Source: Bacteroidales bacterium
GTDB taxonomy: Bacteria > Bacteroidota > Bacteroidia > Bacteroidales > P3
DNA: 64,000 nucleotides
Reading direction: 5' to 3'
Assembly: GCA_009785505.1 (NCBI GenBank)
Contig: WQWA01000003.1
Span: 1-64,000 of the forward strand
Below are positions 13,478 to 34,692 of the stretch, piece by piece. Each line of letters starts with the position of its first letter. The first letter of the stretch is position 1. The notes beneath the pieces were generated by a model, which saw nothing but the letters and a program-made list of their open reading frames with translations, was not told where the DNA came from and ran no database searches. Position numbers and translations under genes: made by a program.

Positions 13478-14094
13478 TTTGCCCGTCAGGGCAACAATAT
13501 CAATAGAAAATAGACCGTCCTAACCAATTTTTGCCCGTAGGGCATCAACGTCAAAAAATGGCAAACACATACACACAAATTTATATTCATTACGTTTTCG
13601 CTGTACAAAATAGATCGAACTTAATTCAGTCAGAATGGAAAGATGATTTGCAAAAATACATGACGGGAATTGTAGATCAACAAGGGCATAAATTATTGCA
13701 AATCGGCGGAATGCCTGACCATATCCACGCATTGGTTAGTATGAGCCCAAAACAATCGCCATCGGATTTGATGTTTCATCTCAAACGAAGTTCGTCTTTG
13801 TGGATTAACGAAAACAAGTTTGTCAAGGGCAAATTTTCGTGGCAGGAAGGATTTGGTGCGTTTAGTTATGGAAAGTCACAAATCCCGAACATCGCAAATT
13901 ATATTCAAGACCAGGAAACACATCATAAAAAACGTAGTTTTATGGAAGAGTATTTGGAAACTTTGAAAAAATTTGATGTGGAATATGACGAACGATATGT
14001 TTTCAAGCCAATCGAATAAATGTTAAAGCCCTACGGGCTAAATGCTAGGGTGAAATAACGTTTTTTCTATTGATATTATTGCCCTACGGGCAAA
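13478..14094 (+). mobile_element. RAYT element 1 framed by inverted REP pairs
   Basis: A 617-bp unit. The outer left end (13478-13510) and outer right end (14063-14094) are inverted copies differing by one substitution and one indel: a TTGCCC-GGGCAA palindrome, a spacer, then ATCAATAGAAAA facing the gene. A second inner palindrome pair lies at 13531-13543 (TTGCCCGTAGGGCA) and 14031-14041 (GCCCTACGGGC). The transposase gene is in the middle. Confidence 0.85.
13558..14019 (+). CDS. REP-associated tyrosine transposase (RAYT, IS200-like HUH family)
   Basis: A 153-aa single-strand HUH transposase. HUH histidines are in MPDHIHAL (about residues 49-56), and the catalytic tyrosine is expected in ANYIQDQETHHKK. 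The segment KFSWQEGFGAFSYGKSQI is typical of RAYTs rather than of plain IS200 TnpA. The ATG at 13558 fits the paralogue at 31256, which shares most residues; the frame upstream runs through a REP. RAYTs process REP sequences at single-stranded DNA; its flanking palindromes are the likely substrate. Confidence 0.88.
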   Translation: MANTYTQIYIHYVFAVQNRSNLIQSEWKDDLQKYMTGIVDQQGHKLLQIGGMPDHIHALVSMSPKQSPSDLMFHLKRSSSLWINENKFVKGKFSWQEGFGAFSYGKSQIPNIANYIQDQETHHKKRSFMEEYLETLKKFDVEYDERYVFKPIE

Positions 14095-15895: not shown

Positions 15896-16528
15896 ATGAA
15901 AAAAACATTATTAGCATCAAAGCGAAAAATAGTGAAATTTGTGAAATTCACAAGAGAATTATCTATCGTTGTTATCGGTGTAGGTATAGCATTGATGGCA
16001 GGTGATTTACTCACCAATAGAAGTGCAAAGCAGGATCTAAGGGCTCTCCTTGAATTGGTAAAAGTGGAAATAGCCCACAATATTGAACGTTCAAATATGA
16101 CTCTTAATTTTTTTACACAAGAAGCGGAGGTTGCAAACTTTATTGCGAGAAATTTAAATAACCCTAATATTATGGATTCAGTGGGTTATTTAACTGGTTG
16201 GTTCGACCTCTTTGCTTATTCCACTGATGCGTTTGATTTACTTGTTGCATCCGGAAGAATGCATCTGATAAGAGATAAAGATCTTTTGATGCAATTAACA
16301 AGCCTATACCGTGGTTTCGTTTTGATTCAGACTCACTCGATAGAATACGCTCTTGCTAAAAATTCTATGATGGGAGAAGTAAATCAACGACCCCAAGATG
16401 CCGTTGACCTTTACAAAAAATTTTATCTGGGGCAAAGAAATATGATTTATATGATGAAAAGTGCGAGCCCAAGGATTTTACAGGGTTTTGAGCAAATATT
16501 AGAACGTTTGGAAAATTTAAGGTTGTGA
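15896..16528 (+). CDS. Single-span membrane protein, DUF6090-like, paralogue 1
   Basis: A 210-aa protein with a basic N-terminus, one membrane segment (ELSIVVIGVGIALMAGD, about residues 21-37) and a helical C-terminal domain. The pattern of a basic stretch, VVIGxxIAL and a following charged helix resembles DUF6090 proteins of Bacteroidota, a weak assignment. It has a clear paralogue at 24096-24734 with nearly identical first 40 residues. The function is unknown. In each locus a PQQ-like propeller gene is close downstream. The 127 bases before it hold no recognised gene. Confidence 0.6.
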   Translation: MKKTLLASKRKIVKFVKFTRELSIVVIGVGIALMAGDLLTNRSAKQDLRALLELVKVEIAHNIERSNMTLNFFTQEAEVANFIARNLNNPNIMDSVGYLTGWFDLFAYSTDAFDLLVASGRMHLIRDKDLLMQLTSLYRGFVLIQTHSIEYALAKNSMMGEVNQRPQDAVDLYKKFYLGQRNMIYMMKSASPRILQGFEQILERLENLRL

Positions 16529-18375: not shown

Positions 18376-19431
18376 ATGCAAAAACAAGGAAACAAATACG
18401 GCTTACACCGCGTGATTGAGCCGAAGGGCGTGTTGCCCCAACCGGCAAACAAAATTTGTAACAATATGAACGAAATTTTCGACAACGAGATTTTGATTGA
18501 TGTACAAACGCTGAATGTTGATTCGGCAAGTTTCACACAAATTAAGGAACAAGCCGGTGGCGACAAAGAGAAAATCGCCGAAATTATGCTCAACATCGTG
18601 GAAACACAGGGTAAACACCGCAATCCAGTTACAGGATCGGGCGGAATGCTTTTGGGTACAGTAGAAAAAATCGGCGATGCTCTGAAAGGAAGAATCGACT
18701 TGAAAGAGGGCGACAAAATCGCTACATTAGTTTCGCTTTCGCTTACCCCGCTAAGGATTGACAAGATCAAAGATATTCGAGCAGATATTGACCAAGTGGA
18801 TATTGACGGAAAAGCGATTTTGTTTGAAAGTGGAATTTACGCGAAAATTCCTGCGGATATGCCGGAAAATTTGGTGTTGTCCGCGTTAGATGTTGCGGGT
18901 GCTCCCGCCCAAACCGCCAAACTTGTCAAAGAAGGCGATACGGTGTTGGTTATCGGAGCAGGCGGAAAATCAGGAATGTTGTGTTGTTACGAGGCAAAAA
19001 AACGTGTTGGAAAAAACGGCAAAGTTATCGGCATAGAGTACAGCGAAAAAAGTGTGAAACGCTTGCAAGAACTCGGTTTTTGCGATGTGGTCTTTTCCGC
19101 AGATGCAACGAAACCGGTACAAGTTTTGGAAAAAATAGAAGAATTAACCAACGGCGAACTCTGCGATGTAACAATCAATTGCGTAAACATCCCCGACACC
19201 GAAATGACGAGCATTTTATGCACCAAACATTCCGGTGTTGTGTACTTCTTTTCAATGGCAACAAGTTTCTCAAAAGCCGCATTGGGTGCGGAAGGCGTGG
19301 GTAGTGATGTAACCATGATTGTCGGCAACGGCTACACAAAAGGTCATGCGGAACTGACACTGCAACTATTTCGCGAAAGTGAAAAACTGCGACAACTTTT
19401 TACAGAACTTTATGCGCAAATCAAAAAATAA
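18376..19431 (+). CDS. kdd: L-erythro-3,5-diaminohexanoate dehydrogenase
   Basis: NAD-dependent dehydrogenase that deaminates 3,5-diaminohexanoate to 3-keto-5-aminohexanoate in lysine fermentation. The 351-aa protein begins with the typical KYGLHRVIEPKGVLPQPA and has the nucleotide-binding segment VLVIGAGGKSGML near residue 195. The ATG at 18376 lies 14 nt after the amidase stop; an earlier in-frame start would overlap the amidase by 150 bases and has no family support. Confidence 0.95.
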   Translation: MQKQGNKYGLHRVIEPKGVLPQPANKICNNMNEIFDNEILIDVQTLNVDSASFTQIKEQAGGDKEKIAEIMLNIVETQGKHRNPVTGSGGMLLGTVEKIGDALKGRIDLKEGDKIATLVSLSLTPLRIDKIKDIRADIDQVDIDGKAILFESGIYAKIPADMPENLVLSALDVAGAPAQTAKLVKEGDTVLVIGAGGKSGMLCCYEAKKRVGKNGKVIGIEYSEKSVKRLQELGFCDVVFSADATKPVQVLEKIEELTNGELCDVTINCVNIPDTEMTSILCTKHSGVVYFFSMATSFSKAALGAEGVGSDVTMIVGNGYTKGHAELTLQLFRESEKLRQLFTELYAQIKK

Positions 19432-19450
19432 TCATAAAAAAAATATCATC

Positions 19451-20764
19451 ATGAAAGTAAAAAAAATCGCTATTTGGATTGTCGCAATAATTGCGGTATT
19501 CGGCATTGTATCATTTATCGGCTATCGCATTATGATTAGCCAGACGAAAACACACACACGCACGGAAACTGTGTCGGAAGTGAGAAATTTTGTACCAAAC
19601 AGTCCTGTTGGCGAAGAAAATTCGCAATGGCGTGGACTTAATCGTGACGGAATTTATCACGAAGAAACCGGACTTCTCACTGCGTGGCCTGTTGGAGGTC
19701 CCGAACTGTTGTGGTATGCCGACAAGTTGGGTGATGGTTACTCCTCGCCGGCAATTGCCAACGGAAGAATTTATATCACCGGACTTCATGCCGACGATTT
19801 AGTGCTTTCCGTGTTCGACCTCAACGGAGAATTACTCGCCAGACAAATTGTCGGTAGAGAATGGGCAAGCAGCTACCCGGGCTCGCGCGCAACAATCACT
19901 GTGAATGACGGACATTTGTACATTTTCAACTCTCTCGGACACATCATTTGTTTAAACGAAAAAACGTTGGAGCAAGTTTGGAAAAGAGATGTTTTGAGAG
20001 ATTTTGACGGAAGAAATATTCGTTGGGGAATGACCGAATCGCCTTTGATTATTGGCGATAAAGTGATTGTTACACCCGGAGGCAGACGACACAATGTTAT
20101 TGCGTTGAACAAAAATACAGGAGAATTAGTTTGGTCGTCGCAGGCTTTAGGTGAACAATCCAGTTATTGCTCGCCATTGTTTATTGACGGTTATGCTGTG
20201 CCTTTAATCGTTACCAGCACAGAGCGTCACATCATCGGACTAAACGCCAACACCGGGGAATTGTTGTGGTCGCATCCGCAAACCAACACACACAACATTC
20301 ATCCAAACACGCCGCTTTACAGCAACGGCATGATTTTTTCTACAACAGGCTACGGTGGCGGATCGGTCATGCTTCGTTTGACAAACAACGGAAGGGGTGT
20401 TGAGTATGTTTGGAGCAATAATGTGGATAATCAAATGGGCGGTGCAGTGAAAGTTAACAACCATATTTTCACGTCCGGACATCGCAATAGAGGTTTTTTC
20501 GCTATGGATTGGAACACAGGAGAAATAAGATATGGCGTTCGCCAAATCTCGCCAAGTGCTATCATTGCCGCAGATGGCATGTTGTTTGTTTATAGCGAAA
20601 GAGGCGAAGTTGCATTGGTTAGACCTAATCCGAATCAATTTGAATTGGTGAGTAGTTTTCATGTAACACTCGGAACAAATCAACATTGGGCACATCCTGT
20701 AATTCACAATGGTGTACTATATATCCGCAGAGGCGATGCTTTGATGGCATTTCAAATACAGTAA
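19451..20764 (+). CDS. Membrane-anchored PQQ-like beta-propeller protein, paralogue 1
   Basis: A 437-aa protein with an N-terminal membrane anchor (IAIWIVAIIAVFGIVSFIGY) and six to seven propeller blades of PQQ-repeat type (GRIYITG, GHLYIFNSLG, NTGELVWSS, NTGELLWSH, GVLYIRRGDALMAF). It has no visible quinone-ligand set, so it is more likely a scaffold or sensor than a dehydrogenase. It is a paralogue of 24731-25948, sharing most blades. It follows kdd by 19 nt; the adjacent lipoprotein and membrane genes suggest an envelope role. Confidence 0.8.
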   Translation: MKVKKIAIWIVAIIAVFGIVSFIGYRIMISQTKTHTRTETVSEVRNFVPNSPVGEENSQWRGLNRDGIYHEETGLLTAWPVGGPELLWYADKLGDGYSSPAIANGRIYITGLHADDLVLSVFDLNGELLARQIVGREWASSYPGSRATITVNDGHLYIFNSLGHIICLNEKTLEQVWKRDVLRDFDGRNIRWGMTESPLIIGDKVIVTPGGRRHNVIALNKNTGELVWSSQALGEQSSYCSPLFIDGYAVPLIVTSTERHIIGLNANTGELLWSHPQTNTHNIHPNTPLYSNGMIFSTTGYGGGSVMLRLTNNGRGVEYVWSNNVDNQMGGAVKVNNHIFTSGHRNRGFFAMDWNTGEIRYGVRQISPSAIIAADGMLFVYSERGEVALVRPNPNQFELVSSFHVTLGTNQHWAHPVIHNGVLYIRRGDALMAFQIQ

Positions 20765-23520: not shown

Positions 23521-24096
23521 ATGACAGCAACCAACAACTTCATCCCCAAACACGGCGGTTACCGCAAATTGCTAAGTTTTCAAAGAGCAGAGGTCATCTA
23601 CGATGGCACGATATATTTTGTCAATCGCTTTTATAGAAAACCCGACCGCACCATCGATCAAATGGTACAGGCTGCACGCAGTGGAAAACAAAACATCGTA
23701 GAGGGTAGTATGGCTTCGGCGACATCAAAAGAATTTGAAATAAAATTAATGAATGTTGCAAGAGCCTCGCTTGAAGAATTAAAAATGGACTATGAGGATT
23801 TTTTAAGAACTCGAAAACTGCCGATTTGGGATAAAGACCACCGTTTAGTTACGCATTTCCGTCAAATAAACAGAACACCCAATGCTAATTATCAAACTTT
23901 TGAAAAAGGAATAGAAAATGAAAATCCTGAAATTTGTGCAAATGTTATGATTTGTCTGATAAACATAACAACTTATCTTTTAGCAAGACAAATAACGGCT
24001 CTTGAAAAAGAGTTTTTAGAAAATGGTGGCTTGCGAGAAAGAATGACGAAAGCGAGGCTTGAGAACAGAAATAAAAACAGAAACAATCAAATATAA
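23521..24096 (+). CDS. Four-helix-bundle suffix-domain protein
   Basis: A 191-aa helical protein of the larger four-helix-bundle type with a C-terminal extension. Landmarks are YRKLLSFQRAEVIYDGT, QMVQAARSGKQNIVEGS and ARASLEELKMDYEDFLR. The role is unknown. The stop overlaps the start of the following DUF6090-like gene (TAATG), so the two are co-translated. It is probably another mobile-type addition within the kam cluster, as is the copy at 14546. Confidence 0.8.
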   Translation: MTATNNFIPKHGGYRKLLSFQRAEVIYDGTIYFVNRFYRKPDRTIDQMVQAARSGKQNIVEGSMASATSKEFEIKLMNVARASLEELKMDYEDFLRTRKLPIWDKDHRLVTHFRQINRTPNANYQTFEKGIENENPEICANVMICLINITTYLLARQITALEKEFLENGGLRERMTKARLENRNKNRNNQI

Positions 24097-24734
24097 TGAA
24101 AAAATTTATCTCCGTATCAAAAAGAAAAATAGTAAAACTTGTAAAATTCACAAGAGAGTTGTCTATTGTTGTTATCGGTGTTGGTATCGCATTGATGGCT
24201 GGCGACTTCCTCTCCAGCAGAAGTGCGAAAAAGGACTTAAGAAACCACCTTAAATTGGTAGAGAATGAAATCGCCTCTAACATTGCAATTTTAAATATGA
24301 CGATTGATCGCTTCACGCAAGAGTCATCGTATGCGACCTTTCTCCGTAGCAACAGAAACAATCCTAATGCAGTAGATTCATTAGGTAATTTTGTTAATAC
24401 CATTTTTGATTTCTCGGGACAGATCCCTTTCACTAGTGCGTTTAATTTGCTTGTCGCATCACAAACACTGCATCTTATACAAGATAAAGAACTATTGCAA
24501 CTTTTATGGCTATATAATGACTGGCTTAATAGAATTTATGTCGAAGGAAGTAATTATCTTTCTGCTAAAATTTTTGCACTGGGGCAACATATACAATCCC
24601 AAGATACCGGACTGCCATTAAAAAATTTCTACTTAGAACACAGCATCCTAATTATAGGATTAAAAGAAACAAATCAATTCGTTTTATCTCTTGCAGAAAC
24701 GGTATTGGAAAATTTAAAAAATTTGAGAATATGA
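24096..24734 (+). CDS. Single-span membrane protein, DUF6090-like, paralogue 2
   Basis: A 212-aa paralogue of 15896-16528. It has the same basic start, membrane segment (ELSIVVIGVGIALMAGD) and helical domain; the C-terminal halves diverge but keep the motifs FNLLVAS, LIQDKELL and LENLKNLR. It overlaps the next gene, a PQQ-like propeller, by four bases (ATGA). Tight coupling to a propeller gene suggests the two products work together. The function is unknown. Confidence 0.6.
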   Translation: MKKFISVSKRKIVKLVKFTRELSIVVIGVGIALMAGDFLSSRSAKKDLRNHLKLVENEIASNIAILNMTIDRFTQESSYATFLRSNRNNPNAVDSLGNFVNTIFDFSGQIPFTSAFNLLVASQTLHLIQDKELLQLLWLYNDWLNRIYVEGSNYLSAKIFALGQHIQSQDTGLPLKNFYLEHSILIIGLKETNQFVLSLAETVLENLKNLRI

Positions 24735-25948
24735 AAAAATTAACTTTCACAATCAGCATCTCGCTTGTTTTGATAACAAGCATTAACGCCCAAATCGGTT
24801 GGCGAAACGACCGTACCGGCATTTTCGCAAATGAAACAGGATTATTAACATCGTGGCCAGAAAATGGTCCTAAAATGCTTTGGTATTTCGAAGAGTTGGG
24901 CGATGGACACTCAGGAATTGCCATTTCGAACGGAAAAATCTATGCAACAGGTATGCTCGACGGAAATGGATATTTGTTCGTTTTCGACCTAAGTGGCAAC
25001 TTGTTAAATAGGATACAATACGGAGTCGAGTGGACGCACGGCTACAACGGCACACGAGCAACGCCAACCATCACAGGCGGAAAAATTTATATTATGAGTG
25101 GAATGGGAGAGTTGATTTGCTTAAATGAACAAACGCTGGAAGTTGTTTGGAGAAGAAATATCCGAACTGAATTTGATGGAAGATGGCCAAACGGCGGTTT
25201 TAGCGAATCGCTATTAGTGATTGGCAATAAAGTGATTGCAACGCCCGGAGGGGAAAAACATAATATCATTGCATTAGACAAAAATACCGGCGAATTGATA
25301 TGGAGCACTCCGGCCAAAGGCGATCCACCGGCTCATTGTTCACCGTTGTATATCGGGCATTTGGAAACACCGTTAATCGTAACATTAACAGGTGAACATA
25401 TCGTTGGAATTGAGGCTTCAACCGGAAAAATGTTGTGGTCGTTTCCAAACAGAAACACCCACACAATCCACGGAAATACACCCATTTATGCCAATGGTAT
25501 GATTTTGGCTACAACTTCTGGACAAGGTTCTACGATGTTGAGATTGTCGAATGGCGGACGTAATGCAGAAGTGGCTTGGACATTGCCCGAATTAGACAAT
25601 TCGATTAGTGGTGTTGTAAAGGTAGGTAATTACGTTTTCGGTGCAGGAGCCGGTGGTAGAGGACAAAGAGCGTGGTTTTCCGTTGAGTGGGAAACAGGAG
25701 AACTTCTATTTCGCGAAGCAGAAAGCGGGCTTGCTGTTGGTGTGATCATTTATGCCGATGGTATGCTGTTCTGTTATTCGGATAGGGGCGATATGGCTCT
25801 TGTTCCCGCAACTCCGGAAAGGTTTGAAATCGTAAGTCGGTTCAGAATAGAAAAAGGTACCGATCAACATTTAGCACATCCCACGATTTATCAAGGCGTG
25901 TTGTATGTGAGACGTGGTAACACTTTGATGGCTTTCAACATAAGATAA
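24731..25948 (+). CDS. Secreted PQQ-like beta-propeller protein, paralogue 2
   Basis: A 405-aa propeller protein with a cleavable signal peptide (KLTFTISISLVLITSINA). Blade motifs include GKIYATG, GKIYIMSG, NTGELIWST and GVLYVRRGNTLMAF. It is a paralogue of 19451-20764; the first copy has a membrane anchor while this one appears soluble in the periplasm. The start overlaps the stop of the DUF6090-like gene by ATGA. Function unknown. Confidence 0.8.
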   Translation: MKKLTFTISISLVLITSINAQIGWRNDRTGIFANETGLLTSWPENGPKMLWYFEELGDGHSGIAISNGKIYATGMLDGNGYLFVFDLSGNLLNRIQYGVEWTHGYNGTRATPTITGGKIYIMSGMGELICLNEQTLEVVWRRNIRTEFDGRWPNGGFSESLLVIGNKVIATPGGEKHNIIALDKNTGELIWSTPAKGDPPAHCSPLYIGHLETPLIVTLTGEHIVGIEASTGKMLWSFPNRNTHTIHGNTPIYANGMILATTSGQGSTMLRLSNGGRNAEVAWTLPELDNSISGVVKVGNYVFGAGAGGRGQRAWFSVEWETGELLFREAESGLAVGVIIYADGMLFCYSDRGDMALVPATPERFEIVSRFRIEKGTDQHLAHPTIYQGVLYVRRGNTLMAFNIR

Positions 25949-28213: not shown

Positions 28214-29761
28214 ATGAACAGCAAATTAGGATTAGATTTTTCAAAAGTCGAAAAAGCAAAAAACACAGCACAGAAAATTGCAATTGATGTGCAGAAATTC
28301 GTGGATGATTACACAACCGTTGCGGTGGAACGCACATTGTGCCGATTGGTAGGCATTGACGGCGTGGACGAAAATTTTGTTCCTCTGCCGAACGTGGTCG
28401 TCGAAGCGGTGCAAGAGGCTGGATTGTTATCGAACGGAGTGTTGTCGTTGCTCGGCAATGCAATGATAGCAACCAAACTTTCGCCACAGAAAATCGCAGA
28501 AAAAATTGCCAGCGGAAGTTTAGATGTTTCTACTTTCGAAAAGCATTCGCAGGCCGATATTCAAAACGTGTTGCAGCCTTTTGTAAACACAGCAATCGAA
28601 CGCATTCGCAACAATCGCAAACGGCGTGAAGAAACAATTGAAAAAATCGGCGAAGGCACAAAACCTTACCTTTATGTGATTGTTGCAACGGGCAACATCT
28701 ACGAAGATGTGGTGCAAGCACAAGCCGCCGCACGACAAGGTGCTGACATCATTGCTGTGATTCGCACCACAGGTCAAAGTTTGCTTGACTATGTGCCTTA
28801 CGGTGCAACAACAGAGGGTTTTGGCGGAACGTATGCCACGCAAGAAAATTTCCGCATCATGCGGAAAGCCTTGGATGAAGTAGGTTTGGAAGTTGGGCGA
28901 TATATTCGTTTGTGCAATTATTGTTCGGGATTATGTATGCCGGAAATCGCTGCAATGGGTGCACTTGAAGGATTAGATGTGATGTTGAACGATGCCCTTT
29001 ACGGAATTTTGTTTCGTGACATCAACATGCAACGCACATTAGTTGATCAGTATTTTTCTAGAATTATCAACGGTTTTGCAGGTGTGATTATCAATACCGG
29101 TGAAGATAATTATTTGACGACTGCCGATGCGTTTGAGGAGGCACACACCGTTTTGGCATCGGATTTAATCAACGAGCAACTGGCTCTTTTAGCAGGAATT
29201 CCCGAAGAGCAAATGGGTTTGGGACACGCTTTCGAAATGGATCCCGAACTCAAAAACGGTTTTCTTTACGAATTGGCACAAGCCCAAATGACACGTGAAA
29301 TTTTTCCGAAAGCACCTTTAAAATATATGCCTCCAACCAAATTTATGACGGGTAATGTTTTTAAAGGACAAATCCAAAATGCACTATTCAATCAAGTTTC
29401 CATTTGGACAGGACAAGGTATTCAACTTTTAGGAATGCTTACGGAAGCAGTGCATACGCCGTTTATGTCCGACCGTTTTTTGGCGATAGAAAATGCAAAA
29501 TATATTTTCAATAATATGGAAAACATCGGCGACGAAGTAGAATTTAAACCCAACGGAATAATCCAACAACGTGCTCAAAAAGTTTTGGATGATGCTTTGG
29601 AATTATTACAAAACATCGAAAAAGAAGGTTTGTTTTCTGCTTTGGAAAAAGGATTTTTTGGTGCTATCAAACGTCCGAAAGATGGTGGGAAAGGGCTTTC
29701 GGGGGTTTCGCAGAAAAACGAAAATTACATCAATCCGTTTGTGGGATTGATGAAAAAGTAA
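28214..29761 (+). CDS. kamD: Lysine 5,6-aminomutase, alpha subunit
   Basis: Large PLP-binding subunit of the adenosylcobalamin enzyme that moves the terminal amino group of beta-lysine to give 3,5-diaminohexanoate. The 515-aa protein matches the family from LGLDFSKVEKA at the start to the GYLYELAQAQM-like segment FLYELAQAQMTREIFP near residue 355. The ATG at 28214 lies 7 nt after the SH3-like gene. The partner subunit kamE is 4.2 kb downstream with six features between, so the normal kamDE adjacency is broken. Confidence 0.95.
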   Translation: MNSKLGLDFSKVEKAKNTAQKIAIDVQKFVDDYTTVAVERTLCRLVGIDGVDENFVPLPNVVVEAVQEAGLLSNGVLSLLGNAMIATKLSPQKIAEKIASGSLDVSTFEKHSQADIQNVLQPFVNTAIERIRNNRKRREETIEKIGEGTKPYLYVIVATGNIYEDVVQAQAAARQGADIIAVIRTTGQSLLDYVPYGATTEGFGGTYATQENFRIMRKALDEVGLEVGRYIRLCNYCSGLCMPEIAAMGALEGLDVMLNDALYGILFRDINMQRTLVDQYFSRIINGFAGVIINTGEDNYLTTADAFEEAHTVLASDLINEQLALLAGIPEEQMGLGHAFEMDPELKNGFLYELAQAQMTREIFPKAPLKYMPPTKFMTGNVFKGQIQNALFNQVSIWTGQGIQLLGMLTEAVHTPFMSDRFLAIENAKYIFNNMENIGDEVEFKPNGIIQQRAQKVLDDALELLQNIEKEGLFSALEKGFFGAIKRPKDGGKGLSGVSQKNENYINPFVGLMKK

Positions 29762-29765
29762 AGTC

Positions 29766-30815
29766 ATGACCGAACAATTATCTCGCAGAAAATTCCTTAA
29801 GGGCTGTGCCGCTATGGCAGGGGTTGCCGTATTGGGAAGTTTGGGTTGTTCGGGAATTGGGAGACGACAAACCTCAACAGATTCCGTAGGAGTAGATCAA
29901 CGCGGAAATTCATTAGAACCAAGATATTTGGAGTTAGAGCGTAGCGGCGAACTTGAATATCGTGAGAAAGCACTTTGGGAATTGTATTCGCCTTGTTATC
30001 TTTGTCCGAGACTGTGCGGGGCAAGACGTGCAGAAGGCGAGGGTGGAGCGTGTACGGCTGCGAGCAATTTCCGTGTCGCTTCACACGGACCTGCTTTCAA
30101 TATTGATCCACCGATTTCCGGCACTCGTGGTTCAGGGTCGATTTTTATGTCGAATTGCAATTTGCTGTGCGTTTTTTGTCAAAATTGGCATATCGCACAT
30201 CGTGGTGACGGACGAGTAACCACCCACCGAGAACTCGCAAACATTATGTTGGATCAACAACGTCGAAGGGCTCACAATGTCAATATCGTTACACCAACAC
30301 ATCATTATCCTCATATTGTTACTGCATTACGAATAGCGATAAATCGAGGACTTAGCATTCCGTTAGTAGTAAATTCAAGCGGTTACGAATCTCTCGAAGT
30401 GATAAAATTGCTCGATGGCGTTATTGATATTTATATGCCGGATTTTAAGTTTATGGATTCGGAAATTGCTAAACCATTTATTGAATATGCCCCAAATTAT
30501 ACGGAGCATGCCGCTGCTGCGATAAAAGAGATGCACCGTCAAACGGGCGATCTCGTGATGGTTGATGGCATCGGAAAACGTGGGACAATGCTGATACATT
30601 TAGTGATGCCGGAAAATTTGTCGGGAACAGATAAATTTGTTCGTTGGGTTGCCGACGAACTCGGTCCGGATACTTACGTCAATATTATGGGTCAATTTTT
30701 TCCTGCATTTAGATCCAACGAATTTCCACCGCTCGACCGACGAATAACACAGCAAGAATTCGCACAAGCCTTGCGTTGGGCGAGAGAGGCGGGATTGCGA
30801 AACTTACGACAATAA
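29766..30815 (+). CDS. Tat-exported radical SAM protein (COG1313 type), paralogue 1
   Basis: A 349-aa radical SAM protein related to pyruvate-formate-lyase-activating-like COG1313. It has a twin-arginine signal (SRRKFLKGCAAMAG) followed by a lipobox-like LGSLGC, so it may be exported folded and lipid-anchored. A first cysteine set is CYLCPRLC (about 77-84), and the cluster motif C-x3-C-x2-C is CNLLCVFC (about 132-139). It starts 5 nt after kamD and overlaps a TonB-like pseudogene by one base. An exported radical SAM enzyme is unusual because the cluster needs low-potential electrons. Substrate unknown. Confidence 0.82.
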   Translation: MTEQLSRRKFLKGCAAMAGVAVLGSLGCSGIGRRQTSTDSVGVDQRGNSLEPRYLELERSGELEYREKALWELYSPCYLCPRLCGARRAEGEGGACTAASNFRVASHGPAFNIDPPISGTRGSGSIFMSNCNLLCVFCQNWHIAHRGDGRVTTHRELANIMLDQQRRRAHNVNIVTPTHHYPHIVTALRIAINRGLSIPLVVNSSGYESLEVIKLLDGVIDIYMPDFKFMDSEIAKPFIEYAPNYTEHAAAAIKEMHRQTGDLVMVDGIGKRGTMLIHLVMPENLSGTDKFVRWVADELGPDTYVNIMGQFFPAFRSNEFPPLDRRITQQEFAQALRWAREAGLRNLRQ

Positions 30816-31148
30816 TGAAAAAACACATTGTATCTATTTTTGTATTGCTTTTCTATGCGAATGTTTTTTGCTACTCTCAAATTACCGAGAATAGCATAGG
30901 CTCTAAAGAGGTTTTTGCGATTGTTGAACAACCTCCTGAGTTTCCGGGAGGAATAAACGCATTTAGAGAATATATGGCACAAAATGTAGGCATACTTATT
31001 CGTATTCCTGACCCTCAACTAGATATTGGCAGATACACAAAAGAGGATTGTCCGTGCATTACAAGAAATGCCAAAATGGATACCAGGAAAACAACGTGGA
31101 AGACCTGTTCGTGTTCAGTATCAATTTCAGTTTGGATTACTACCCTAA
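30815..31148 (+). pseudogene. Truncated, frameshifted TonB C-terminal-domain gene
   Basis: The frame from ATG 30815 has a signal peptide (IVSIFVLLFYANVFCYSQ) and VEQPPEFPGGINAFREYMAQN, the start of a Bacteroidota TonB C-terminal domain. After about residue 76 the correct end appears one frame over: RIVRALQEMPKWIPGKQ through QYQFQF, ending at the TAA at 31146-31148. Some 40 residues of the domain core are missing. The gene has thus suffered a deletion and a +1 shift. It lies right before RAYT element 2. Confidence 0.8.
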
Positions 31149-31158
31149 CGCCAGCCCC

Positions 31159-31794
31159 GCATCCCGTTAGGGATGCATCGCTCGGTAGAAAAGACAGCCA
31201 TCAAAGCACCCCTGCATTCCGTAGGAATGCAACCAATCGTTAGCAAAGAAACAATATGCCTAACACCTATACACAAATCCATATTCACGCCATTTTCGCC
31301 GTTCAAAACCGAACATCGTTGATAGATAAATCGTGGCAAGAAAGATTGTACAAATACATTATTTCTATCACACAAAAACACGGACACAAAGTTTTGTCTA
31401 TCGGCGGAATGCCCGACCACGTGCATATTTTGTTTGGTTTTCGTCCTACGCAAGCCTTATCGAAATTAATGCAAGAAGTAAAGCGTGATAGTTCGGAGTG
31501 GATAAACAAAGAGAAGTTTGTTAGGGGGAAATTTTCGTGGCAAGAGGGGTACGGTGCATTCAGTTATGCGAAATCGCAAATCCCGAATGTTGTAGAATAT
31601 ATTGAAAAACAAGAAAAACATCATAAAAAACATACATTTCGTGAGGAATATTTGGAAATTTTGAAAAAATTTGATGTGGAATATGACGAGCGGTATGTTT
31701 TTAAAGACGTTGAGGAATAGGTTGCATTCCGCAGGAATGCAGGGCAAAGAGAAATAACATTTTTCTACCGAGCGATGCATCCCTAACGGGATGC
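31159..31794 (+). mobile_element. RAYT element 2 framed by inverted REP pairs
   Basis: A 636-bp unit. Outer left end 31159-31193 and outer right end 31760-31794 are inverted copies with 34 of 35 matches: palindrome GCATCCC-GTTA-GGGATGC, then ATCGCTCGGTAGAAAA facing inwards. Inner pair: TGCATTCCGTAGGAATGCA (31213-31231) and its counterpart at 31723-31741. The architecture equals element 1 but the REP sequences differ. Confidence 0.88.
31256..31720 (+). CDS. REP-associated tyrosine transposase (RAYT), paralogue 2
   Basis: A 154-aa HUH transposase closely similar to the one at 13558. HUH histidines are in MPDHVHIL (about residues 49-56), RAYT block KFSWQEGYGAFSYAKSQI near 93, and the catalytic tyrosine is expected in VEYIEKQEKHHKK. 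The stop codon touches the inner right REP. The gene lies between a TonB-like pseudogene and the second Tat radical SAM gene, so its arrival may have separated two tandem copies of the latter. Confidence 0.88.
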   Translation: MPNTYTQIHIHAIFAVQNRTSLIDKSWQERLYKYIISITQKHGHKVLSIGGMPDHVHILFGFRPTQALSKLMQEVKRDSSEWINKEKFVRGKFSWQEGYGAFSYAKSQIPNVVEYIEKQEKHHKKHTFREEYLEILKKFDVEYDERYVFKDVEE

Positions 31795-31826
31795 GAACGG
31801 CTCGGCAAAAATTAAGCAATTTAATT

Positions 31827-32876
31827 ATGAACCAACAATTATCCCGTAGAAAATTTCTCAAAGGTTGCTGTGCTATGGCAGGCGTAGCAATGCTTGGGAG
31901 TTTTGGTTGCTCGGGAATTGTGGGGCAATCAGAAAACAATCCAAGAGGAGCGAGAAACCAACGCAGAAACATTCCCGAACCGAGATATTTGGAATTGGAA
32001 CGCAGTGGCGAACTCGCACACAGAGAAAAAGCACTTTGGAAGTTGTATTCGCCGTGCTATCTTTGTCCGCGTTTATGCGGTGCGAAACGTGCGGAAGGCA
32101 TTGGCGGATATTGTACTGTTGCAAGTAGTTTTAGAGTGGCGTCTTATGGTGTTGATTTTGCTACTGAACGCCCCATTCGTGGCACTCGTGGTTCCGGTGG
32201 AATCTTTTTGTCGAATTGTAATTTATTGTGTATTTTCTGTCAGAACTGGCAAATCGCTCATCGTGGCGACGGTAGTGTGACTACACCTGATCAACTCGCC
32301 AACATGATGATGAGCATTCAGCGGAGAAATCCACATAATGTTAGTTTTATATCGCCTACACATTTGGTACCACAAATTGTATCTGCATTAAGAATTGCGA
32401 TTGGCAGAGGTTTTAATTTGCCTTTGCTTTTCGATACCAGCGGTTACGAATCTTTGGAAGTGATTAAATTGCTCGACGGAGTTGTTGATATTTATCAACC
32501 CGATTTCAAATTTATGGATTCGGAAATTGCCGCACGTTTTACGCAAGGTGCACCAAATTATGCGGAACACGCCGCTGCCGCAATAAAGGAAATGCATCGT
32601 CAAGTGGGTGTGTTGAAAATGGCTGATGGCTTGGCGTATCGTGGGATTTTGATGCGGCATTTGGTTTTGCCCGAAAATCTATCGGAAACGGATAAATTTG
32701 TTCGATGGGTTGCCAACGAACTTTCGCCTGAAACGCACATCAACATTTCCGGTCAATTTTTTCCTGCATTTAGATCAAACGAATTTCCACCTCTCAACAG
32801 GCGTATAACACGAACAGAACACAACCAAGCGATGACTTGGGCGAGAGATGCGGGATTGCATAATTTTCATTCGTAG
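31827..32876 (+). CDS. Tat-exported radical SAM protein (COG1313 type), paralogue 2
   Basis: A 349-aa tandem paralogue of 29766-30815, most residues shared. It has SRRKFLKGCCAMAG, the lipobox-like LGSFGC, CYLCPRLC (about 77-84) and CNLLCIFC (about 132-139). The ATG at 31827 is chosen to match the paralogue; a longer frame would start in the RAYT right end. The two copies differ mainly in the linker after the signal and in scattered positions. Likely a second copy with related but possibly different substrate. Confidence 0.82.
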   Translation: MNQQLSRRKFLKGCCAMAGVAMLGSFGCSGIVGQSENNPRGARNQRRNIPEPRYLELERSGELAHREKALWKLYSPCYLCPRLCGAKRAEGIGGYCTVASSFRVASYGVDFATERPIRGTRGSGGIFLSNCNLLCIFCQNWQIAHRGDGSVTTPDQLANMMMSIQRRNPHNVSFISPTHLVPQIVSALRIAIGRGFNLPLLFDTSGYESLEVIKLLDGVVDIYQPDFKFMDSEIAARFTQGAPNYAEHAAAAIKEMHRQVGVLKMADGLAYRGILMRHLVLPENLSETDKFVRWVANELSPETHINISGQFFPAFRSNEFPPLNRRITRTEHNQAMTWARDAGLHNFHS

Positions 32877-33936: not shown

Positions 33937-34692
33937 ATGACAGAAACAAAAAATATGAAAGACCTAACCAAAATCAAACCCTACGGCGACACCCTCAACG
34001 ACGGAAAAGTACAGTTGAGTTTTACCCTGCCCGTGTCGTTTAGCGACGAGGCTATCGAAGTCGCAAAACAACTGATGTACAAAATGGGATTCGACAATCC
34101 GCAAGTGGTTTTTTACAAAGAACTGACCGAGGGTTACACGTTTTTCAATTGTTACGGAAATTGTTCGCATTCGGTGGATTTCACGAAAATTCAGGTGCAG
34201 AAAGTGGAAAGTTCAACGATGACAATGGATGAAACTGATGAATTTATCAAAGAAAACATCGGCAGAAAAATTGTTGTTGTCGGTGCGAGTACGGGCGACG
34301 ATGCACATACGGTGGGCATCGACGCAATCATGAATATGAAAGGCTACGCCGGACACTACGGCTTGGAACGCTACGAAATGATCGATGCTTACAATTTGGG
34401 CAGTCAAGTACCGAACGAGGAATTTATCAAAAAAGCCCTTGAAGTAAACGCCGACGCATTGCTGATTTCGCAGACCGTCACACAAAAAGATGTCCACGTG
34501 AAAAACATGACCGAACTTATTGAAATGCTTGATGCCGAAAATTTGCGAAGCAAAATGATCGTTGTTTGCGGAGGACCCCGCATCTCTCACGAACTGGCAA
34601 AGGAACTCGGCTTTGATGCAGGCTTTGGCATGAATACGTACGCGGATGATGTTGCGTCGTTTATCGCAGAGGAAGTCGCAAGACGCAAATAG
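33937..34692 (+). CDS. kamE: Lysine 5,6-aminomutase, beta subunit
   Basis: Cobalamin-binding subunit of lysine 5,6-aminomutase. The 251-aa protein has the base-off B12 motif DAHTVG (D-x-H-x-x-G) with the histidine near residue 125, and the lysine exactly 11 positions later (NMK) that corresponds to the PLP-binding K144 of the characterised enzyme. The N-terminal KIKPYGDTLNDGKVQLSF is typical. The start may be 33937 or the ATG at 33955; the latter is closer to the family. An array of palindromes lies upstream and kamD is 4.2 kb away. Confidence 0.94.
   Translation: MTETKNMKDLTKIKPYGDTLNDGKVQLSFTLPVSFSDEAIEVAKQLMYKMGFDNPQVVFYKELTEGYTFFNCYGNCSHSVDFTKIQVQKVESSTMTMDETDEFIKENIGRKIVVVGASTGDDAHTVGIDAIMNMKGYAGHYGLERYEMIDAYNLGSQVPNEEFIKKALEVNADALLISQTVTQKDVHVKNMTELIEMLDAENLRSKMIVVCGGPRISHELAKELGFDAGFGMNTYADDVASFIAEEVARRK

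Follow-up and report, generated by a model that had tools for sequence, protein, structure and literature searches.

Gene content of the locus

The window analyzed here is a stretch of 64,000 nucleotides from a Bacteroidales genome (assembly GCA_009785505.1, contig WQWA01000003.1, positions 1 to 64,000). The source organism is a termite-gut-type bacterium, whose genome (G000) amounts to 1.83 Mb on 50 contigs. Two genes for proteins of 349 aa, RS1 at 29766–30815 and RS2 at 31827–32876, both on the forward strand, had been reported in a preliminary description of the window and are real: both open reading frames match the radical SAM model PF04055 and the Tat signal model TIGR01409, and RS1 additionally gives a well-defined AlphaFold model. 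The two proteins are 70% identical from end to end. Another tandem pair, 59–60% identical, is found on a different contig of the host genome (C8:4191–6346), for a total of four copies of the Tat-signal radical SAM protein arranged as two tandem pairs. A second genome of the same genus (G004) likewise contains a pair, and its members group one to one with those of the C8 pair in the tree.

The segment between RS1 and RS2 contains a TonB-like remnant, as previously noted, and a transposase gene that the preliminary description did not mention. The remnant (30815–31145, forward strand) is visible by eye in a three-frame translation but is frame-shifted and has no Pfam match, and we consider it incidental. 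The transposase, also an incidental insertion, is of the IS200/IS605 Y1 type (31256–31720, forward strand; PF01797, 101.9 bits; NF033573 over its cut-off), and repeat analysis places the limits of the element at 31158–31795, where perfect inverted arms of 35 nt (31158–31192 and 31761–31795) contain inner palindromes. This element resembles a REP-associated element, with the IS200 model scoring over and the REP-associated transposase model under the cut-off, and the list of open reading frames includes a second IS200/IS605-like Y1 transposase at 13531–14019 of the window. Downstream, a lipoprotein gene (P0003, 32910–33719) lies 3' of RS2 as had been described, but its relevance is not borne out, as it has no homologue at any other family locus. 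A functional link to P0003, or to the lipoprotein encoded between the two G004 copies, was rejected because homologues of the two are absent from the other loci.

The whole RS1–RS2 block is located between kamD (28214–29761) and kamE (33937–34692), which encode the alpha and beta subunits of lysine 5,6-aminomutase, and looks like an insertion. The surrounding lysine fermentation cluster (22200–42659) includes a kamA-like gene, the KamB reactivase, kamD, kamE, a CoA-transferase, a thiolase and others. Two PQQ-like beta-propeller proteins were recognized by eye in this cluster (19379–20764 and 24731–25948), each near a small membrane protein (15896–16528 and 24096–24734), and these membrane proteins belong to one family.

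The radical SAM core and its relatives

RS1 and RS2 score 46.6 and 38.7 bits, respectively, against PF04055 (Radical_SAM, cut-off 29.5) and contain the CxxxCxxC motif, which places both in the radical SAM superfamily. The motif spans residues 131–138 in RS1 (30156–30179) and 32217–32240 in RS2, both on the forward strand. Its cysteines C131, C135 and C138 are present in both proteins and invariant in the family, in agreement with the earlier claim of intact cluster motifs. Other positions that are invariant over 65 aligned members are C77, C80, C96, G122, G124, K228, H278 and Q310, while C84 and D226 each deviate in one sequence (64 of 65 conserved), and the catalytic residues are equally invariant in exported and cytoplasmic members of this alignment. 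Judged by these residues, the enzyme looks intact. The N-terminal cysteines form a CxxCPxxC...C motif (residues 77–96 in RS1, 29994–30053; 32055–32114 in RS2; forward strand), which on the strength of its conservation in the alignment is a candidate for a second Fe-S or metal site.

The AlphaFold model of RS1 has a mean pLDDT of 90, with most of the core above 95, and its closest fold is the PFL activating enzyme (PDB 3c8f/3cb8; Z 19.3, rmsd 3.0 over 224 residues), with which it shares the radical SAM fold and CxxxCxxC; the DxK pair of the family (D226/K228) presumably corresponds to D129/K131 of that enzyme. The family differs from PFL-AE in its low sequence identity (13–14%), in the added N-terminal CxxCPxxC...C motif and Tat signal, and in that no glycyl radical enzyme was noticed in the listed family neighbourhoods. 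The equivalog model for PFL activating enzymes, TIGR02493, is absent among the model matches of RS1 and RS2, and sequence searches of the PDB with the single protein and with a 65-row profile gave no match.

TIGR04337 (the radical SAM protein of AmmeMemoRadiSam) is homologous to the family over its full length (hhalign 99.5%, E 7e-23) and has the N-terminal Cys motif in common with RS1 and RS2. Membership was nevertheless rejected, with scores of 28 and 24.8 bits against a curated cut-off of 220, and by these comparisons the RS1/RS2 clade is a sister family of TIGR04337. Unlike the RS1/RS2 clade, most TIGR04337 proteins of the control genomes are without a Tat signal. Cytoplasmic relatives from the same bacterial family and order, about 30% identical, appear to be COG1313-type PflX-like proteins; they differ from RS1 and RS2 in having no signal peptide and in forming a deep separate branch (SH-aLRT 100).

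The nearest relatives of RS1 and RS2, at 51–67% identity, are encoded in MAGs of Spirochaetota, Elusimicrobiota, Fibrobacterota and Alphaproteobacteria. The sample codes Lab288, Emb289, Cu122 and Co191 denote guts of higher termites (PMC7024585). Together with the Bacteroidales copies, these relatives form a clade of 25 members (SH-aLRT 99), which we refer to as the termite clade, a label taken from the four codes above, although the MAGs of the clade have other codes too (such as Pal332, Spi319 and Ehx436). In the family tree, which was built without the N-terminus, the phyla are intermixed within this clade, which indicates transfer between phyla; on the evidence of the tree, the gene has moved among five phyla within the termite gut. 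A larger clade of 45 members (SH-aLRT 99) encloses the termite clade and is referred to below as the Tat clade, since 43 members have a Tat-type signal; loss of the signal is clear only for the G043 gene, because the other gene without a signal (G050) is cut by a contig end. The cytoplasmic relatives outside the Tat clade come mostly from Nitrospirota and Thermodesulfobacteriota. No conserved neighbour or operon partner was found among the termite-clade loci compared. An MFS transporter gene lies 3' of the family gene in two spirochaetes (69% identical), and other transporter families occur beside some copies, with no single family recurring.

Tat signals and the Tat pathway across genomes

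The twin-arginine signals that had been described for both proteins are confirmed by TIGR01409 (NCBIfam TAT_signal_seq, curated cut-off 16.7 bits). The signal of RS1, SRRKFLKGCAAMAGVAVLGSL (29778–29840, forward strand), scores 23.8 bits with E 7.1e-6 in the whole-genome scan, that of RS2, SRRKFLKGCCAMAGVAMLGSF (31839–31901, forward strand), scores 23.6 bits with E 1.2e-5, and the cut-off is exceeded in all four host-genome copies. Among orthologues the signal region is present throughout the termite clade (25/25) and in 43 of the 45 sequences of the larger clade. The RR pair is kept in 42 of the 43 Tat-signal members of the Tat clade and in 25/25 of the termite clade, whereas the pattern RR.[FL] occurs within the first 30 residues of just 2 of 73 relatives outside the Tat clade, which indicates that the motif is more than a chance feature of the clade. 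A lipobox-like cysteine had also been described; it is found in both RS1 and RS2, but not as a general trait, being present in 12/25 termite-clade and 18/43 Tat-clade members. RS1 and RS2 therefore do not qualify as bacterial lipoproteins by conservation of the lipobox Cys among orthologues; export is the conserved trait, and lipidation is not.

Tat genes are present in the host genome: tatC is split across the ends of contigs C4 and C41, with tatA adjacent. Given these genes and the signal regions of the orthologues, the preliminary description withstands both of the refuting conditions that it had named. RS1 and RS2 thus combine a conserved signal over the cut-off with translocase genes in the same genome, as is characteristic of Tat substrates. 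A scan of the host genome with the Tat-signal HMM yields exactly four matches, i.e., the four radical SAM copies. The same is seen in G004 (2/2), in an elusimicrobial genome (G062, Elusimicrobiota, 2/2), in a Treponema (G065, 1/1) and in another spirochaete (G066, Spirochaetes, 5/5), so that in five genomes from three phyla all 14 of 14 matches are family copies. The scan is not blind to other substrates, since it returns 36 to 137 matches in genomes rich in them (e.g., G043 and G080). It relies, however, on a single HMM of limited sensitivity, and "only Tat substrates" is consequently to be understood as the only ones detected. In G061, family copies account for two of three matches, and the gene for the remaining one, an aldo/keto reductase-ferredoxin protein, is next to tatC. 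Three genomes of the same genus that have no family gene (G001–G003) have neither tatC nor any Tat-signal match.

A tatC gene could be identified in 28 of the 31 genomes that encode a family member with a Tat signal, and in the spirochaete genomes G065 and G066 it lies within about 1.5 kb of the family gene. The three genomes where tatC was not found (G072, G086 and G087) are all MAGs and possibly incomplete, given that G072 and G086 have 7 and 6 Tat-signal matches in spite of the missing gene. Joint transfer of tatC and the family gene was considered and rejected; the TatC of the genus is most similar (40%) to the protein of another member of the order, and not to spirochaete TatC. Export of RS1 and RS2 by the Tat translocase is strongly supported by these genome comparisons, which go beyond the preliminary description in that the four copies are the only Tat-signal proteins detected in the genome.

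An exported AmmeMemoRadiSam module and the possible function of RS1 and RS2

In the free-living relatives Wenzhouxiangella, Kiritimatiellae and Syntrophales, the family gene adjoins a second radical SAM gene with a Tat signal, which scores as AmmeMemoSam_rS (TIGR04337; 320 and 342 bits in the two that were scanned, cut-off 220) and itself lies near a gene for a multi-TM protein with a spermidine synthase domain. On a Lentisphaerae contig about 3 kb separates the two radical SAM genes. Thirteen of 17 free-living Tat-clade genomes encode a TIGR04337 protein whose N-terminus reads as a Tat-type signal (RR or KR), compared to 3 of 30 controls, i.e., genomes having a non-Tat relative of the family (Fisher p = 6.6e-6, only a guide because the signals were judged by eye from the N-terminal sequences and the genomes do not count as independent samples). 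Many free-living relatives carry both Memo and TIGR04337. A Sec or lipoprotein signal is found on Memo in three Acidobacteriota (G073, G077, G078) and in all three Bacteroidales relatives examined, and in the two loci that were scanned (L237 and L272) the exported Memo is fused to AMMECR1. The Bacteroidales genomes G043, G049 and G050 (L272, L273 and L274) have the signal-bearing Memo, the spermidine-synthase TM protein and a KR-type Tat TIGR04337 protein in a row, and comparable sets of genes occur in Acidobacteriota and in a deltaproteobacterium (L237, L238, L240). From these predicted signals and gene neighbourhoods we conclude that an exported AmmeMemoRadiSam system exists, with the RS1/RS2-type clade as its frequent accessory, and the members of the module and this clade presumably share a common function. 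Genome searches found no TIGR04337, Memo or MFS_SpdSyn in the host genome or in several other termite-clade genomes, and other termite-clade genomes have only AmmeMemo radical SAM proteins that carry no signal. The search for co-occurring partners envisaged in the preliminary description was thus successful in free-living relatives but not in the host genome, where the partner system cannot explain the function.

We propose, with about even confidence, that RS1 and RS2 are Tat-exported paralogues in a PFL-activase-like radical SAM clade that would perform radical chemistry on an envelope substrate. Folding around the Fe-S clusters would occur in the cytoplasm, and the proteins would pass through the Tat translocase with the clusters in place. 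Outside the inner membrane, SAM and the CxxxCxxC cluster would most likely generate a 5'-deoxyadenosyl radical, which would in turn modify a substrate in the periplasm or envelope. Among free-living relatives the clade would act as an accessory of a module consisting of the second Tat radical SAM protein, the Sec-exported Memo-AMMECR1 and the multi-TM spermidine-synthase-like protein, while in termite-gut bacteria, including the host, the gene would have spread across phyla as a stand-alone and often duplicated unit without the module. The radical chemistry would thus take place outside the cytoplasm. Radical SAM enzymes are generally regarded as cytoplasmic, since that is where SAM and low-potential electrons are found; we know of no periplasmic SAM pool or low-potential electron donor, and of no established precedent for radical SAM chemistry outside the cytoplasm.

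Export by Tat could also serve a protein that is not an active radical enzyme once outside, i.e., a periplasmic Fe-S or metal protein (a sensor, metal carrier or electron carrier) built on an old radical SAM fold. Such a role would agree with the lack of a known SAM supply in the periplasm, with the extra conserved set of cysteines C77, C80, C84 and C96, and with the metal-binding fold of Memo in the associated module of relatives. We regard it as unlikely, because conservation of CxxxCxxC, G122/G124, D226/K228, H278 and many further residues is no less strict than in cytoplasmic relatives, and this conservation would be lost under relaxed catalysis; the TIGR04337 partner, moreover, is itself a radical SAM protein whose motifs are intact. 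Somewhat less probable still is that the chemistry takes place in the cytoplasm, where SAM and electrons are available, on the protein itself or on a hitch-hiking partner, and that the finished modified protein or tightly bound partner is then exported. Tat exports folded complexes, and the tandem copies could pair as a hetero-dimer. However, the termite clade has no conserved partner gene, and the Memo-AMMECR1 protein of the relatives has its own Sec or lipoprotein signal and would therefore meet the radical SAM protein only outside.

Two further alternatives concern the signal and the genomic context. An N-terminal membrane anchor that merely resembles a Tat signal, leaving the domain in the cytoplasm, would fit the basic stretch followed by a short hydrophobic segment and the variable lipobox, but it would not need the RR pair that is strict in 42 of 43 sequences. 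The genome-level match of Tat-signal matches to the family, together with the absence of tatC from same-genus genomes without the gene, also makes an anchor very improbable. The position between kamD and kamE could suggest that the pair belongs to the lysine fermentation operon, which we find scarcely credible: kam genes do not recur near family genes at other loci, the second pair of the host genome is located elsewhere, and the transposase and gene debris mark an insertion-prone place.

Returning to Tat-exported enzymes acting on an envelope substrate, we also consider, more tentatively and with some doubt, that they and the exported AmmeMemoRadiSam module together represent a whole class of extracytoplasmic radical SAM enzymes, each exported by Tat or Sec. 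SAM and electrons would be supplied across the inner membrane, with the multi-TM spermidine-synthase-like protein as one candidate for the handling of SAM or its derivative, and several termite-gut bacteria would keep Tat for one enzyme alone. The superfamily itself is known; what we did not find described is the exported branch, seemingly the sole client of the Tat pathway, and the exported AmmeMemoRadiSam module. In the open literature, which leaves most subscription papers outside its coverage, we found nothing on Tat-dependent or extracytoplasmic radical SAM proteins and no description of such a module. Bacteria that seemingly keep Tat for a radical SAM protein alone would raise the question of periplasmic SAM and its electron donor, for which small genomes with an apparent sole Tat substrate offer a clean setting, and the module of the free-living lineages makes the question of periplasmic SAM testable. 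Memo and AMMECR1 also occur in humans, where their basic function is unsettled, and an exported version in bacteria limits the requirements that these proteins can have. Catalysis outside the cytoplasm, if shown, would amount to more than a variant of a known superfamily.

Candidate supply factors are the multi-TM spermidine-synthase-like protein and, at one Acidobacteriota locus, DUF362 and 4Fe-4S proteins; none of these was found in the family neighbourhoods of the host genome. A DUF362 protein with a Tat-like or lipoprotein N-terminus is encoded beside the exported AmmeMemo genes of an acidobacterial locus (L237:4540–5589), and at the equivalent position of L236 there is a DUF362 gene without a signal. 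In G061, a termite-gut member of Spirochaetaceae, tatC is followed on contig C3 (L231:6619–10578) by genes for the Tat-signal aldo/keto reductase, which has 4Fe-4S sites, and for a membrane polyferredoxin, and these two proteins possibly form a periplasmic electron chain.
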